64,000 bases of DNA from Gallionella sp. (GTDB lineage Bacteria > Pseudomonadota > Gammaproteobacteria > Burkholderiales > Gallionellaceae): positions 62,001-126,000 of the forward strand of contig JAQTYN010000001.1 of NCBI GenBank assembly GCA_028688275.1, read 5' to 3'. The notes beneath the pieces are model-generated. The model searched no databases. It had not been told where the DNA came from and saw only the letters and a program-made list of their open reading frames with translations. Each line of letters opens with the position of its first letter. Positions within the stretch are counted from its first letter, which is position 1. The position numbers and the translations under genes were made by a program. This document shows positions 9,841-18,646 of the stretch, one piece after another.

Positions 9841-10721
9841 AAGCGCAACCAGTTTTGAGGAATCAGGTCTTGTGTATTGGTGTCATTCGCAAACCAGCGT
9901 TTGGGCGCAATCACACACTTTTTATCATCTGGATTCAGCCATGCCCCCCACCAACTGAACGAGCTATTCGCGATGATGTGATGCTGACACATACTCATCA
10001 AACGCATGTCGTTGTAGCTCTCGGCACCTTGGTTATGAGTAATGTATTGATGTGGGTAGTCAATTTTTAGGTTGTCTTTCACCCATCCAATGTCATCAGA
10101 AAAGACAAAGAAATGCGGCGCATTCACACGTCTGGAAGTGCAGTCAATTGCTTCACGATAATAGTCCAATGAACATACACCATGCGTTGCAGTCGTTTTG
10201 GCATTGTTTACATAATCACCTCGTCGCACATGCAAACTCACCGCATTAACGGCAAGTATTTTTTTTTCTGCAATTACGTTCAATGAACTCATCGGCAAAC
10301 GAAATAAGAAATCGGCGCGTATCTGCTGTGCAACATCGGCGAAGTACTTTTCACTTTGCCAATAACCTACCAGATAGCTGTTTTTTGAGAGGAGGTTAAT
10401 ACCTTGCCAATAATTGAAATGTGGCTCAACCACTAAACTATTACGGCGCAGCCGTGCCATGTTTGAACGTAGTACAAGGCGTTGAACCAAGGGGTTGGAT
10501 TGCCACCCTAATGTTTGTTGCACATCCTGCCGAGTCGCTATTTCGGGCGTGAAATTAAAAATTTTCTGCAATTCAAATCCTTGATGCAGTGGATAGTTCG
10601 CAAATCCAGAAATATCCAAGCGTAGTCTCCCCCCTGTTCTGATAGACACCGCGCGAGCTGCCGCATATTGAAACATCTGGTTTCCAAGACCGCCGATGAT
10701 TTGACTAATTACCATACTCAT
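9837..10721 (-). CDS. GT11 family alpha-1,2-fucosyltransferase-like enzyme (possible colitosyltransferase)
   Basis: A 294-residue GT11 protein. Motifs are IIGGLGNQMFQYAAARA near the N-terminus, the donor-binding VSLHVRRGDYV in the middle, and SNSSFSWWGAWL near the C-terminus (the segment IIANSSFSWWGAW). GT11 enzymes use GDP-L-fucose, and relatives in colitose-containing O-antigens such as E. coli O55 use GDP-L-colitose. Because this operon carries colD and a ColC-like reductase, colitose transfer is a good alternative to fucose transfer. The ATG start overlaps the flippase stop (ATGA). Confidence 0.9.
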   Translation of the reverse strand: MSMVISQIIGGLGNQMFQYAAARAVSIRTGGRLRLDISGFANYPLHQGFELQKIFNFTPEIATRQDVQQTLGWQSNPLVQRLVLRSNMARLRRNSLVVEPHFNYWQGINLLSKNSYLVGYWQSEKYFADVAQQIRADFLFRLPMSSLNVIAEKKILAVNAVSLHVRRGDYVNNAKTTATHGVCSLDYYREAIDCTSRRVNAPHFFVFSDDIGWVKDNLKIDYPHQYITHNQGAESYNDMRLMSMCQHHIIANSSFSWWGAWLNPDDKKCVIAPKRWFANDTNTQDLIPQNWLRL

Positions 10722-13774: not shown

Positions 13775-13960
13775 AGAACGTTCCGAATCTCCTTAAATGC
13801 TGAGAGTATTTAAGTTTGAAGTGCAACCACTTTCTGAACCATGTCCAAAAGTGACTGAGGAATGGTTGTGACAGAGAGATATATGGTTAGGTGTTTGGTC
13901 TTCGCCTGTTAATTCAATCTCATCCATCAAGCGAAATATTCGTTGAATGAGTAAATTTGC

Positions 13961-14131
13961 CTATTTTACAATACAGCTAGAAAGCGACTCAAGTCTATCC
14001 AATTGTTCGGGAGGTGTGTCTTTTGGGTTCTGAAAACTGAGGTGTTGAACTAAAGAGTACTCCCAATATTGGGCGGCAAGTTGCAATTCAATCCGCTCGT
14101 CTTGAAGGGGCTTAGTTCTGATGTTTGTCAT
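13961..14131 (-). CDS. Small unrecognised ORF, probably relic of a two-gene module
   Basis: An intact 56-residue frame beginning MTNIRTKPLQDERIELQL, acidic and without membrane segments. Its ATG overlaps by ATGA the stop of a frameshifted nucleotidyltransferase-like remnant, the arrangement expected of a two-gene toxin-antitoxin-like unit. I do not recognise the family. It may be expressed or simply a surviving piece of the decayed module that fills the gap between the sugar-synthesis and transferase blocks of the polysaccharide operon. Confidence 0.35.
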   Translation of the reverse strand: MTNIRTKPLQDERIELQLAAQYWEYSLVQHLSFQNPKDTPPEQLDRLESLSSCIVK

Positions 14132-14390
14132 AACCACAAACCCGTTTGCAGCGCGAGTTGAGTAAAGGCACTAGTGTCCAGATAGACGGAAATATCAACT
14201 TTTCGAGAACCGAGCTTGTTGTGTAATTTTTCAAAAATGTCCAGTTTAATTATTAGACCTATTTTTTAGACAAGACTAATTTTTTAGTGTCATCATTGAC
14301 ACGTGAAGTAAAAAGATAAACTGCAACATTAACATCCGCCTGATGGCTCGAGTCACTGATGGCTAGTTTCTCTTCATAGATTAAACGCAT
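14128..14390 (-). pseudogene. Frameshifted remnant resembling a minimal nucleotidyltransferase (MNT)
   Basis: Two consecutive minus-strand pieces in different frames. The first (14390 to 14259) reads MRLIYEEKLAISDSSHQADVNVAVYL in its first 26 residues; its ADVNVAVYL looks like the SDxDIAVYL active-site strand of MNT-family proteins with one Asp changed to Asn. After the frame shift, the second (about 14265 to 14128) ends with IFEKLHNKLGSRKVDISVYL, like the second conserved strand of these proteins. The GS part of the catalytic motif is missing. It is followed in ATGA overlap by a small ORF. The family link is my inference from motif resemblance only. Confidence 0.35.
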
Positions 14391-14392
14391 AT

Positions 14393-14510
14393 CTTATTCC
14401 GTTTTCATTTCAATACAGCAATCATTCGTAGGGTGCATTCGATGCACCATGGTGCGCACAGCGCACCCTATTATATTTTCAACTTCACTTTTGATTTTGA
14501 AATGGCATTA
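14393..14510. repeat. 118-bp direct repeat, left copy (flanks yerE-yerF)
   Basis: Read base by base, this block is identical to 17218-17335. It contains a REP-like double hairpin: GTAG at 14428 followed by the stem GGTGCA/TGCACC, then GGTGCGC-ACA-GCGCACC ending CTAT. Its last three bases, TTA, are the reverse complement of the stop codon of the yerF-like gene. Confidence 0.97.
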
Positions 14511-15479
14511 CTTCGCTTTATTCAGATCATCTGTATGGTTAGTAATGTGCTTTGGAGTCAAAATATCGCACATTTTCACTTCCTGTAGCACTCCTTGTAA
14601 AGAAGTGAGTGTTGGGTGGTAACCAAGCGCGGTCGCTTTTTTATTCAACGAGTAATAATGCGGCTTGCTGCCTGTGGCATTGACACTGGCGGCGGCTCCA
14701 CTCATCTCATAGCGCAAACCAAACTTTTCCTGCATCGCAGCCAGCAAAGTGGGTTTATCGATAGGTGCGAGGCTATAGCAATCTACCGCTGCATTATCAG
14801 CAGGTGCGTTGAGCAAGGCGGTCACGAGGCCATAAAAATCTGAGGGGTGCAAATAATCTCGCACCATAAAGTCGGACGAGGTTTGCAGCACCGTGTTATC
14901 CCGAATAGCGCGCAGGATGTCGGTCATTAAAAACCGTGCAGACATATCTTGGGTGTGGCTAAAATAATTAAATACGCGAATGTCGATAATGGCTAAATCA
15001 GGGTGCGCACGATGACGACATTCAGCATGCAGTTTCGCCACGCCATACCAATCCTGCGGTTTGAGATGATTGAGATCAATGCGGGCGGGTGTGTCCTGAT
15101 TGGCGGGGTCGGCAAAGTTTGAACCATAAGCTGCGCCACTGCTTAAGAACAAATAACGGCAGTTTGGGTGAGTCTGCAAATAATCCAGCACCAATTCATC
15201 GAAGCGCAAGGTGACATCAAAGATGGTATTGCCCATCGCCACCGCTTGCGCAGGGTTGCCAACTCCGACGAAGTTCATCACCGCATCATAAGTGTTGCTG
15301 CCAAAGACTGAAAAATCATCGACTAAATAGCGTCCAGCCAGTCCTACGCTTTCCAACCATAGTCTCACCTCATCAGGGCGACGCGCAAAGAGATGCAGTC
15401 GTTTGTCCGTTTCGACGGAAAACGACAGAATCAAATCTTTGGCAATTTGACTGGTTGCCCCAAGGATAGCGATTTTCAT
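14508..15479 (-). CDS. yerF: CDP-yersiniose synthesis NAD(P)H-dependent reductase, YerF-like
   Basis: A 323-residue extended SDR protein. MKIAILGATSQIAKDL is a Rossmann dinucleotide site, LFLSSGAAYG provides the active-site Ser region, and WYGVAKLHAE has the YxxxK pair. Generic family assignment is NAD-dependent epimerase/dehydratase. The YerF role, reducing the acetyl side chain of the branched CDP-sugar to give CDP-yersiniose, is inferred from its position directly after a YerE-like ThDP enzyme and after ddhA-ddhB-ddhC, the order known from Yersinia pseudotuberculosis O:VI. The ATG at 15479 is preferred; a GTG at 15485 abuts the yerE stop. Its stop codon lies in the left copy of the 118-bp repeat. 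Confidence 0.72.
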   Translation of the reverse strand: MKIAILGATSQIAKDLILSFSVETDKRLHLFARRPDEVRLWLESVGLAGRYLVDDFSVFGSNTYDAVMNFVGVGNPAQAVAMGNTIFDVTLRFDELVLDYLQTHPNCRYLFLSSGAAYGSNFADPANQDTPARIDLNHLKPQDWYGVAKLHAECRHRAHPDLAIIDIRVFNYFSHTQDMSARFLMTDILRAIRDNTVLQTSSDFMVRDYLHPSDFYGLVTALLNAPADNAAVDCYSLAPIDKPTLLAAMQEKFGLRYEMSGAAASVNATGSKPHYYSLNKKATALGYHPTLTSLQGVLQEVKMCDILTPKHITNHTDDLNKAK

Positions 15480-15484
15480 GGGCA

Positions 15485-17194
15485 CTAATTGCTTAATTTA
15501 GGCAGTTGTTCGTCCAACTTTGCGCCAAATGCCAAACGGGGGCGACATTCCGTTGCACCTACCATCATCACTTCAATTAAGCGTGGGGTATGTTGCTCTG
15601 CGGTTTGTTCTAATAGCTGAATCAAATCCGCCTCGTTCTCAACCCGATGCGCTTCGATACCATAAGCCTCGGCAATTTTGCTAAAAGCGGGGCTGCTATA
15701 ACCTTTGCGCGTGGATTGATCGCGCCCATCAAAGTACATATCTTGGAAATTCTTAACCATGCCTAACACAGTGTTATTCATCACGACAATGGTGACATCT
15801 AGCCCCAAGCGATTGAGGGTATCTAGCTCTTGAATGTTGATTTGCAGACTGCCGTCGCCTGTAATCACCACCACTTTGCGTTGTGATTGAATCGCAACAC
15901 CCAATGCGGTCGGGAGCGCGAAGCCCATCGCGCCCATGCCGCCGCTGTAATGCACCGCTTGGTTGATAGACAAGCGCAGACTTTGCGCCGCCCACATTTG
16001 GTGATTGCCGACATCACACACATAATCAACGTGTTGATGCTGCAACGTGCGATTCAAAGTGTTGAACAACACGCTGGGACTAACGACCCAATCGGCATAT
16101 TCATTACGCTGCGCTTGCTCACGTTGCTGCGCAAGCTGACTAAACCAAGTGTTATCCAAACAAGGAAAGGTATCCGCACGCAAAGGAAAGGCAGCAAAGA
16201 AGCGGCTGGCAGTCGTACAAATATTCAAATCCGCTTGCACGCGATTATTGAGCTGAGCGGGATCAATGTCGATCTGCACCACTATTGCCTGACGGGCAAA
16301 GTCTGCCATGTCCGACCCCGTTTGACGCACATCTAATCGCGCCCCAATCACGATCAACAAGTCACAATGCTGCACCGCAAAGTTCGCTTCACGATTGCCA
16401 TAACTGCCGATCAGATTAAAGTAATGTGGTCGCGCCACGACCCGTTCATGCCCCATCAACGTGGATACGTAAGGAATGCCCAAGGTATCGGCTGCTTGTA
16501 GCCAGTCATCCATCGCATCCGCCCGGCGCGCACCGCCCCCGATGCAAATCAACGGACGTTGGGCTGTCGCGCATAATTCTGCTAGCGCATTCAACGCATT
16601 GCGATCCACCTCGGCTGCTGTCTCGATGTTGAGCGGCGCACTTAACCACTGCGCTACCAGTGCATCGGGAATGTCGGCACGTTGCACATCATTGGGAATG
16701 TCAATCAGCACGGGACCTTGCCTGCCACTTAAGGCTAAAGACAAAGCCTGATGCAATGCGGGCAACAAGTCCTCTAGGCTATCCACTCTCACTGCATATT
16801 TGGTCAGCGAACGTGAGACTTCAACTATGTCCAGCTCTTGGAAACCTTGTTGGCGAATGGCGCGGTCGCCCTTGAGTTCACGCGTATTAACTTGTCCTGT
16901 AATAAACAAGCAAGGTACAGAATCAAACCAGCAACTGCCTATCCCTGTGATGAGATTGGTTGCCCCAGGGCCGCTTGTCCCCATCGCCACCGCCACGGTT
17001 TTGCCTTGGGTGTAACGCGCCACGCCCTCGGCAGCGAAGGCGGCGGATTGCTCATGGTGCATGGACACGATGTTGAATTGTCCTGACTCGGCAAAACTAT
17101 CCAGTAAATGGGTAATCATCCCGCCCACCAGTTCAAAACACGTTTGAACTCGATGGGCGATTAAAAATTGGGCGAGTGCGTCTGATGCTTTCAC
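15485..17194 (-). CDS. yerE: Thiamine-diphosphate flavoenzyme, YerE-like (CDP-4-aceto-3,6-dideoxygalactose synthase)
   Basis: A 569-residue member of the acetolactate synthase-like ThDP family. The N-terminal domain has the catalytic Glu in SMHHEQSAAFAAEG, the central domain covers about residues 190 to 340, and the C-terminal ThDP domain carries VITGDGSLQINIQEL with NN downstream. YerE couples the two-carbon unit of pyruvate to C4 of CDP-3,6-dideoxy-4-keto-glucose. The specific call rests on the neighbours: CDP-3,6-dideoxyhexose genes lie directly upstream and a reductase gene follows. A true acetolactate synthase large subunit is less likely because no small subunit or amino-acid genes are near. 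Confidence 0.75.
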   Translation of the reverse strand: MKASDALAQFLIAHRVQTCFELVGGMITHLLDSFAESGQFNIVSMHHEQSAAFAAEGVARYTQGKTVAVAMGTSGPGATNLITGIGSCWFDSVPCLFITGQVNTRELKGDRAIRQQGFQELDIVEVSRSLTKYAVRVDSLEDLLPALHQALSLALSGRQGPVLIDIPNDVQRADIPDALVAQWLSAPLNIETAAEVDRNALNALAELCATAQRPLICIGGGARRADAMDDWLQAADTLGIPYVSTLMGHERVVARPHYFNLIGSYGNREANFAVQHCDLLIVIGARLDVRQTGSDMADFARQAIVVQIDIDPAQLNNRVQADLNICTTASRFFAAFPLRADTFPCLDNTWFSQLAQQREQAQRNEYADWVVSPSVLFNTLNRTLQHQHVDYVCDVGNHQMWAAQSLRLSINQAVHYSGGMGAMGFALPTALGVAIQSQRKVVVITGDGSLQINIQELDTLNRLGLDVTIVVMNNTVLGMVKNFQDMYFDGRDQSTRKGYSSPAFSKIAEAYGIEAHRVENEADLIQLLEQTAEQHTPRLIEVMMVGATECRPRLAFGAKLDEQLPKLSN

Positions 17195-17217
17195 AATAAA
17201 TTCCTGTCTGACACCAA

Positions 17218-17335
17218 CTTATTCCGTTTTCATTTCAATACAGCAATCATTCGTAGGGTGCATTCGATGCACCATGGTGCGCACAGCGCACCCTATTATA
17301 TTTTCAACTTCACTTTTGATTTTGAAATGGCATTA
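17218..17335. repeat. 118-bp direct repeat, right copy
   Basis: Identical to 14393-14510, with a unit spacing of 2825 bp. The TTA at its right end is the reverse complement of the ddhC stop codon, so both flanking genes borrow their stop from the repeat. It contains the same GTAG-marked double hairpin (17253 to about 17296). Confidence 0.97.
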
Positions 17336-18646
17336 GAAGTTCACGCCAAAGAAGGTTTCGATTTTCTCGACCACGAAGCTGAGCATCTCCTCGGTCAAAC
17401 CTGGATAGACGCCGATCCAAAGGGTGTTGTTCATCACGCTGTCGGTATGGGTGAGTTCGCCACTGATGCGGTAGGTGCGACCTTCAAAATACGGTTGGCG
17501 AGTCAAATTGCCCGCAAACAATAAACGCGTGCCGATTTTGTATTGATCCAAGTATTTCAGCAGTTCTACGCGCGCCACACCTGCGTCGTCGCGCAAGGTG
17601 ATGGGGAAGCCAAACCATGAAGGTTCGCTGTTAGCGGTCGCTTCGGGCAATATTAAAAACTCTGCACAGGATTGCAAATGTGCTTTGAGGAAGGCGAAGT
17701 TGTGCTGACGTGCGGCGATAAAATCGGGCAGTCTATCCATTTGCGCTAAAGCACAGGCGGCTTGCATATCCGTGATTTTGAGGTTGTAGCCCAAATGCGA
17801 ATAGGTATATTTGTGGTCGTAGCCCATCGGCAAGGAGCCCAATTGCTGACCAAAACGTTTGCCGCAGGTGTTGTCGCAACCTGATCCGCAGTAGCAATCG
17901 CGTCCCCAATCACGGAAGGATTCAATAATCGTGCGCAGTTCGCGGTCTTTGGTGAAGACCATGCCACCTTCGCCCATGGTGATATGGTGCGCGGGGTAAA
18001 AGCTGCACGTGGCGATATGTCCAAAGGTGCCAACGTGTTGACCTTTGTAGCGCGAACCTAGCGCGTCGCAGCAATCTTCTATTACCCAAAGATTGTACTT
18101 TGCGGCAATCGCCATCACCGTGTCCAAATCAAAGGGGTTGCCCAAAGTATGTGCCACCATGATGGCGCGGGTTTTGTCCGTGACAGCGGCTTCAATTTTG
18201 GCAGGGTCAATGTTGTAAGTGGGAATATCCACATCCACAAAGACAGGCACCATGCCGTTTTGTAACATCGGGTTTACCGTGGTGGGGAAACCTGCCGCTA
18301 CGGTGATGACTTCATCGCCTGCTTTCAAAGCGCGTTCGCCCAACTTGTGCGAAGTCAAGGCGGTAAACGCCAACAAATTTGCCGATGAACCCGATGTCGT
18401 GGTCAATGCGTACGGCACACCGACGAATTCGGCAAAGCGTTTTTCGAAGGCTTCGTTAAAACGTCCCGTGGTCAACCAGCCATCTAGCGAGGCTTCGACC
18501 ATGTTCTTGAGTTCAGGTGCGCCAAGCACTTTTCCTGAGGGTGGAACCACGCTCGTGCCCGCCACAAAGGGCTTTTCGGCATATTGCAGCGCGCTGTATT
18601 GTTCAACTAAATCTAAAATTTGATGTTTTATTGTTGTTTTGTCCAC
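17333..18646 (-). CDS. rfbH: CDP-6-deoxy-4-keto-D-glucose 3-dehydrase (E1), RfbH/DdhC
   Basis: A 437-residue PMP-dependent dehydrase of the aminotransferase fold. It removes the C3 hydroxyl of CDP-4-keto-6-deoxyglucose on the route to 3,6-dideoxyhexoses. Two features distinguish it from true aminotransferases: the PLP Lys is replaced by His ([12 protein letters not shown], His220), and it has the [2Fe-2S] cysteine pattern C193-x57-C251-x-C253-x7-C261 (segment [16 protein letters not shown]). Both match E1 from Yersinia. The reductase E3 (ddhD/rfbI) needed to regenerate the cluster is not in this window. It lies 12 bp after rfbG. Confidence 0.96.

Follow-up and report, generated by a model that had tools for sequence, protein, structure and literature searches.

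The window analysed here, a 64,000-nucleotide stretch of Gallionella sp. DNA (C33:62001-126000 of a draft assembly of 112 contigs), contains an operon of sugar genes in which two copies of a short repeat bracket the gene pair yerE-yerF. The genes concerned lie on the minus strand and comprise ddhC/rfbH, for a CDP-4-keto-6-deoxyglucose 3-dehydrase (17333..18646; NF011936 RfbH, 758 bits against a cut-off of 423), a gene for a yerE-like thiamine diphosphate-dependent carboligase (15485..17194; three TPP_enzyme domains), and a gene for a yerF-like short-chain dehydrogenase/reductase (14508..15485; Epimerase family, no NCBIfam match). The assignments of ddhC/rfbH, ddhB and ddhA were backed by NF011936, TIGR02622 and TIGR02623, each over its cut-off. 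The carboligase matched that of the Yersinia similis locus at 51%, and its top match in the PDB was 5ahk, an acetolactate-synthase-like enzyme that is probably a YerE homologue itself. This arrangement resembles the yersiniose set ddhA-ddhB-ddhC-yerE-yerF of loci in Yersinia, Pseudomonas and Comamonas, in which ddhC is followed by yerE and usually by yerF; a yerF relative comes after yerE in many loci. It differs from that set in having no ddhD relative on the window's contig, as a Comamonas ddhD-like protein used as query matched only on other contigs of the same genome (best on C6, 39%).

The two repeats occupy positions 14393-14510 and 17218-17335. Repeat comparison confirmed the observation of an earlier note on this DNA that they are 118 bp long, in direct orientation and identical base for base, with 2825 bp from start to start; the remaining direct repeats of at least 25 bp reported between 10 and 22 kb were two imperfect ones of 27-28 bp, and Rfam gave no match between 12 and 19 kb. 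The minus-strand order is ddhC, repeat, yerE, yerF, repeat, and each copy opens on that strand with the TAA stop codon of the gene upstream of it (yerF, 14508-14510; ddhC, 17333-17335), again as the note had stated. When copies of a wider family were aligned with their flanks (see below), the 118 bp resolved into a 111-bp element, a TAA on each side and one chance G. Copy 1, downstream of yerF, is thus the minus-strand segment 14397..14507 (TGCC...GGAA), its bounds given by the family alignment and the target duplications, with TAA at 14508..14510 on its upstream side, which is the yerF stop codon, and at 14394..14396 on its downstream side. Copy 2, between ddhC and yerE, is the identical 111 bp at 17222..17332, with TAA at 17333..17335, the ddhC stop codon, and at 17219..17221. 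The repeats therefore end "at the stop" because the flanking TAA duplications are themselves the stop codons of yerF and ddhC.

A search of the window's own genome with the 118 bp returned partial relatives elsewhere, and DNA searches found matches in 30 of 76 genomes of the Gallionella genus group, its own included. A covariance model built from 15 copies (threshold E 1e-4) extended this to 32 of the 76, with tens of matches in several genomes, although near-palindromic copies may be counted on both strands; it gave five matches in the own genome, three of them not among the matches listed. A loose regular-expression scan for the element yielded mostly chance matches and was dropped. The alignment of copies with their flanks placed the ends of the unit at TTCCATTTC and AAATGGAA, with the same triplet directly outside both ends in many copies. 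The family ends are TTCC...GGAA, and the consensus carries terminal inverted repeats (TTCCATTTC.../...AAATGGAA). The element accordingly has the properties of a miniature inverted-repeat transposable element (MITE), being short (111 bp), non-coding, multi-copy and dispersed, with terminal inverted repeats and a target-site duplication.

The target was characterized in 100 of the listed covariance-model matches, mostly from the top of the table; this sample did not include the window's own two copies or about a dozen listed places that scored low, were partial or lay at the edge of a contig. TNA stood on both sides in 50 of the 100, and in 45 of these 50 the two triplets were concordant (TAA 25, TTA 13, TGA 5, TCA 2), the other five being discordant; from the marginal counts, about 19 concordant pairs were expected with independent flanks. 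The target duplication is hence a 3-bp TNA whose middle base matches on both sides, and copies without TNA on one or both sides reflect decay or misplaced ends. IS630 targets the dinucleotide TA. As the duplication here is TNA rather than TA, we term the element an IS630-like MITE and do not file it with the RUP (repeat unit of pneumococcus) and Correia families, since a TA dinucleotide target such as that of RUP was not found.

Any TNA triplet reads TAA or TGA on one strand, and both insertions in the window sit in stop codons. In a hand-picked set that included both window copies, 12 of 18 targets were stop codons. The proportion was lower in the larger set without the window copies, where 12 of 45 targets were the exact stop of an open reading frame (ORF) of at least 100 codons; gene calls here were such crude ORFs, and related insertions were kept in. 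Outside genes, 12 of 31 targets were exact stops, compared with 78 of 774 TNA sites in these flanks (p = 2e-5), and when only the interval from the stop codon to 100 bases beyond was considered the excess was about twofold (12 of 27 targets, against 84 of 397 TNA sites; p = 0.006). Fourteen of the 45 targets lay inside crude ORFs, compared with 84% of control sites, which speaks against a complete avoidance of genes. Stop-codon targeting is thus weaker than at first seen; selection against damaging insertions explains part of the excess, and a residual preference for stop codons is possible.

Each window copy contains a doublet of repetitive extragenic palindromic (REP) sequences, a class usually credited to REP-associated tyrosine transposases (RAYTs). 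In copy 1 this core (14429..14470) was delimited by an inverted repeat and its fold, which gave a pair of inverted hairpins headed by (G/A)TAG (z = -4.5 for the entire repeat); in copy 2 the core is at 17254..17295. The heads are GTAG and ATAG, like those of GTAG REPs, and the pair of inverted REPs is what characterizes a REPIN (REP doublet forming a hairpin) or a BIME (bacterial interspersed mosaic element). The pattern TAGGGTGC-7-GCACC occurred ten times in the own genome, with the two window copies contributing four occurrences; its reversed control did not occur. A near-identical core was found without arms in relatives, where 15 of 18 core loci had neither arm end and one had a weak left-end match only, both arm ends being present in two (L068 and L077). 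The cores of the 45 concordant MITE copies were in turn of several types, with GGCGG on at least one side in 21, GGTGC on at least one side in 20, and the rest unclassed. Similar arms with different GTAG cores, together with the occurrence of the doublet alone, are the basis for reading the element as a chimera.

Insertion sequences (ISs) with similar ends were found in the same genome and in a relative. Contigs C68 and C104 end inside an IS with the left end TTCCATTTCCAATTC, flanked by TAA and TTA and followed by the start of an ORF. The first 32 residues of this ORF align with the winged-helix ORFs of two IS630-type elements on plasmids, and none of 1000 shuffles equalled the score. In the relative (genome G040), eight contig ends hold both ends of another IS, TTCCATTTC(C/T)AGTTA, whose last 42 residues matched six plasmid records at 48-55%, three of them annotated as IS630 family transposase, one as transposase, and two without annotation there. 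Among three of these plasmid regions, an IS630-like element from Caballeronia showed distinct inverted ends of 20 bp, TTCAATTTCTAATTCAATAG, and a TTA at either end. There are thus IS630-type elements that resemble the MITE in their ends and target TNA, and the IS of the own genome, assigned from fragments only, is probably one of them; such elements would be the ones that move the MITE.

We consider it highly probable that the two repeats are recent copies of a 111-bp non-autonomous MITE, mobilized in trans by an IS630-type transposase, that landed within an older ddhC-yerE-yerF operon. An IS630-type transposase would act in trans on the MITE, whose TNA target, a TAA or TGA stop codon on one strand, would be duplicated upon insertion. 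Because the triplet is duplicated, the stop codon would be rebuilt and the insertion would be harmless. One copy would have entered the ddhC stop codon and the other that of yerF, in the same orientation, and their identity could stem from recent insertion, local hopping or gene conversion; that the perfect identity marks a recent event, as the earlier note proposed, we accept. Several observations weigh against this interpretation. The window copies have TGCC in place of TTCC at the left terminus and lack perfect inverted repeats. No other full-length DNA match was found in the own genome, and the two copies are just 2.8 kb apart, which random insertion does not predict. Half of the family copies examined (50 of 100) lack TNA on one or both sides. 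On the side of the transposase, a plasmid-wide search with the 32 residues of the own IS gave one weak, unannotated match (E 0.04), three IS pieces had no match in Pfam, clear inverted ends were seen in one of the three plasmid IS regions examined and were not shown by the other two, and a complete transposase with the ends of the window MITE was not recovered, just IS ends at contig breaks.

The order of events was evaluated from relatives, for which a scan of genome contigs kept 80 of 110 YerE relatives. In many of them ddhC, yerE and yerF are contiguous with neither the element nor repeats between them, and the repeats therefore did not bring the pair in; an imported cassette was rejected on this ground. 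Among the 22 loci with a YerE of at least 75% and a ddhC-yerE spacer below 200 bp, the spacer was 25-28 bp in 17 and 18, 19, 19, 33 and 176 bp in the other five; that of the window is 141 bp with the stop codon included, and subtraction of 111 + 3 bp leaves 27 bp, the length of an empty site. When the element was compared by BLAST with 91 yerE loci (partly duplicates), it matched one locus only (L055/L110, genome G013), and not beside ddhC; this copy of the family, at about 10548-10661, is some 4.8 kb downstream of the yerE gene in a different Gallionella locus. The closest relative, Gallionella sp. STB_49 (95% in YerE, 97-98% in ddhC), has no element in the locus, and the end of its yerF differs from the window's. 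A survey of 26 ddhC loci in 24 genus genomes, covering some 1.5 kb to either side as far as the contig extended, found the element near ddhC in none of the 25 other loci (one of them, L237, is uninformative, ending at the 3' end of ddhC). In thirteen of the 24 genomes ddhC is present and a yerE of at least 65% is absent; in the nine of these whose sequence after ddhC was inspected, other ORFs and no element follow ddhC. Judged by these sequence comparisons, the operon would be a ddhC-yerE-yerF unit for a yersiniose-like sugar that is older than the insertions.

These comparisons bear directly on the proposal of the earlier note that the repeats frame an excisable sugar cassette, acting as recombination sites through which yerE-yerF is lost or regained and the O-antigen varied. 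This proposal is compatible with a MITE origin of the repeats, and part of it stands: recombination between the copies would indeed remove 2825 bp carrying yerE-yerF and leave the ddhC stop intact at the junction, and at Salmonella wzy, repeats of a similar length (113 bp) are known to permit a deletion, of 2558 bp (PMC12074656, in the passages cited). The retention of yerE-yerF beside ddhC without repeats in many relatives nevertheless speaks against a repeat-framed cassette, as does the absence of the element near ddhC in the other genus loci examined, and the single-repeat ddhC allele that the note suggested looking for was absent from the 26 loci of the survey. A switch to an unbranched 3,6-dideoxyhexose would need a 4-ketoreductase, and none was met, although none was specifically searched for; the simpler outcome of a deletion, which would take out the enzymes presumed to form the branch, would be loss of the branched sugar. 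Nor would the variation arise "without mobile genes", as each repeat is itself a copy of a mobile element. The geometry, the identity and a possible deletion thus hold, whereas a designed sugar switch is improbable, and the bracketing of yerE-yerF looks fortuitous, not like a cassette designed for switching. A RecA-type deletion between the copies is possible, and could occasionally remove the 2825-bp unit as a side effect of the MITE insertions with no built-in switch; nothing was found that shows such a deletion in this organism. In the cited passages on Salmonella Typhimurium wzy (attL/attR; PMC12074656), two identical 113-bp direct repeats likewise surround an O-antigen gene, about 2.5-2.8 kb apart in both systems, and there the 2558-bp deletion was observed in cultures and strains, with a circle detected by PCR; those repeats are described as being without symmetry, whereas the present ones are near-palindromic MITEs.

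The remaining explanations concern how the second copy, or the unit as a whole, came about. The perfect identity and the distance of 2.8 kb would also fit a second copy made by gene conversion or segmental duplication of yerF-3'/ddhC-3' sequence instead of transposition, and two independent inserts may have been homogenized by gene conversion; yet both ends match the family boundaries, both sites carry target duplications, and the length of the empty site fits at ddhC-yerE, which makes an origin other than transposition quite improbable. We hold it very unlikely that the REP doublet was spread as a REPIN by a RAYT, with the arms as hitchhiking flank. In its favour, the core consists of two inverted REPs with GTAG heads, relatives have this pair without the arms, and the genome encodes two Y1_Tnp proteins with GTAGG words near both genes (in stretches of 4.8 and 5.9 kb), but the TAGGGTGC word is absent from both stretches, similar arms bear different cores, and the inverted ends and TNA duplications bound the arms and not the core. 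As the target duplications fall outside the core, a purely RAYT-driven origin was rejected as the whole story. That the repeats are an artefact of assembly, for which the draft state of the 112-contig assembly could be invoked, is scarcely credible: the 174,723-bp contig passes unbroken through both copies, their flanks differ, and each has the structure of a target duplication. In two other contigs of the assembly the break comes 126 and 157 bp into an IS, and so in longer repeats. Judging by these breaks, the assembly probably still resolved repeats of some 118 bp.

The IS630-like MITE of the window resembles the IS630-derived MITEs of other bacteria, such as RUP and the Correia elements of Neisseria (NEMIS, Neisseria miniature insertion sequences), in being a non-coding, dispersed unit of about 100 bp with IS-like terminal inverted repeats and a target duplication (PMC2229807 and PMC2817692, in the sections cited). 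RUP is described there as inserting at TA targets (PMC2229807), and the review sections give most such repeats TA ends (PMC2229807/PMC2817692); the present family differs in its 3-bp TNA duplication and in a GTAG REP doublet middle of several sequence types. It shares with the RAYT-associated GTAG REPs, BIMEs and REPINs a core of two inverted GTAG-headed hairpins that is also found alone, and it differs in that the mobile unit reaches beyond the REPs, to outer inverted ends with target duplications. GTAG REPs often supply a TAG stop codon to flanking ORFs, according to the passage cited (PMC3733652), whereas the stop supplied here is the duplicated TAA or TGA target. The literature search found no description of this element, and a family that combines IS630-like ends, a TNA target and a REP doublet core looks like a novel form of such elements. 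We propose, tentatively and with some doubt, that IS630-type MITEs throughout the genus carry REP doublets (GGTGC and GGCGG cores among others), so that REPs are spread by a DDE transposase rather than a RAYT, and that entry of the MITEs into stop codons seeds break points in operons. If this is true, the TNA target permits harmless entry into stop codons and so seeds identical direct repeats at gene ends, at which genes could be deleted or swapped in operons like this O-antigen cluster. On the MITE reading, the apparent antigen-switch cassette becomes an example of small mobile repeats mimicking one. Two testable questions are thereby raised, namely whether REP sequences ride inside a MITE of a DDE transposase, and whether the TNA target is the reason that such elements occupy stop codons.

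Other members of the family were also noted. Six full-length copies of equal model score, with concordant TNA duplications, are present in genome G016 (contigs C62, C66, C139, C157, C193 and C200), which suggests recent activity of the element there. A 61-bp version without the REP doublet, with TTA duplications, lies at 1504-1564 of locus L211 (genome G044). At 1501-2922 of locus L196, a 5' and a 3' MITE end stand 1422 bp apart with TTA on both sides and enclose other ORFs; the pair may represent either a composite unit or two copies in decay, and an autonomous element was rejected as none of the ORFs inside was recognized by eye as a transposase.

The ddhC-yerE junction is occupied by other sequences in some relatives. 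In STB_49 (L100, 4946-5965), ddhC and yerE are separated by a gene of 339 aa that is weakly similar to the window's glycosyltransferases, and the two genes also stand about 1.0-1.1 kb apart in L104, L125, L126, L127, L133 and L166; the junction may be a recurrent insertion point. That the window lost such a glycosyltransferase-like gene through the repeats is not favoured, the insert-free spacer being 27 bp, a length common in relatives without such a gene. In L053/L112 (genome G032), 1.77 kb between ddhC and yerE hold ORFs that by eye resemble a nucleotidyltransferase/HEPN-type pair. In L049 (4690-5753; genome G053), what is left of the 3' end of ddhC is separated by about 650 bp from the first 25 residues of a yerE, and the interval holds an unrelated ORF that by eye may be of PIN type; this locus is apparently a decayed copy of the ddhC-yerE operon. 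In the window itself, the roughly 600 bp between yerF and an acetyltransferase gene (13775-14393) hold no long ORF and several broken short frames, one of which begins three bases past the duplicated TAA of copy 1.

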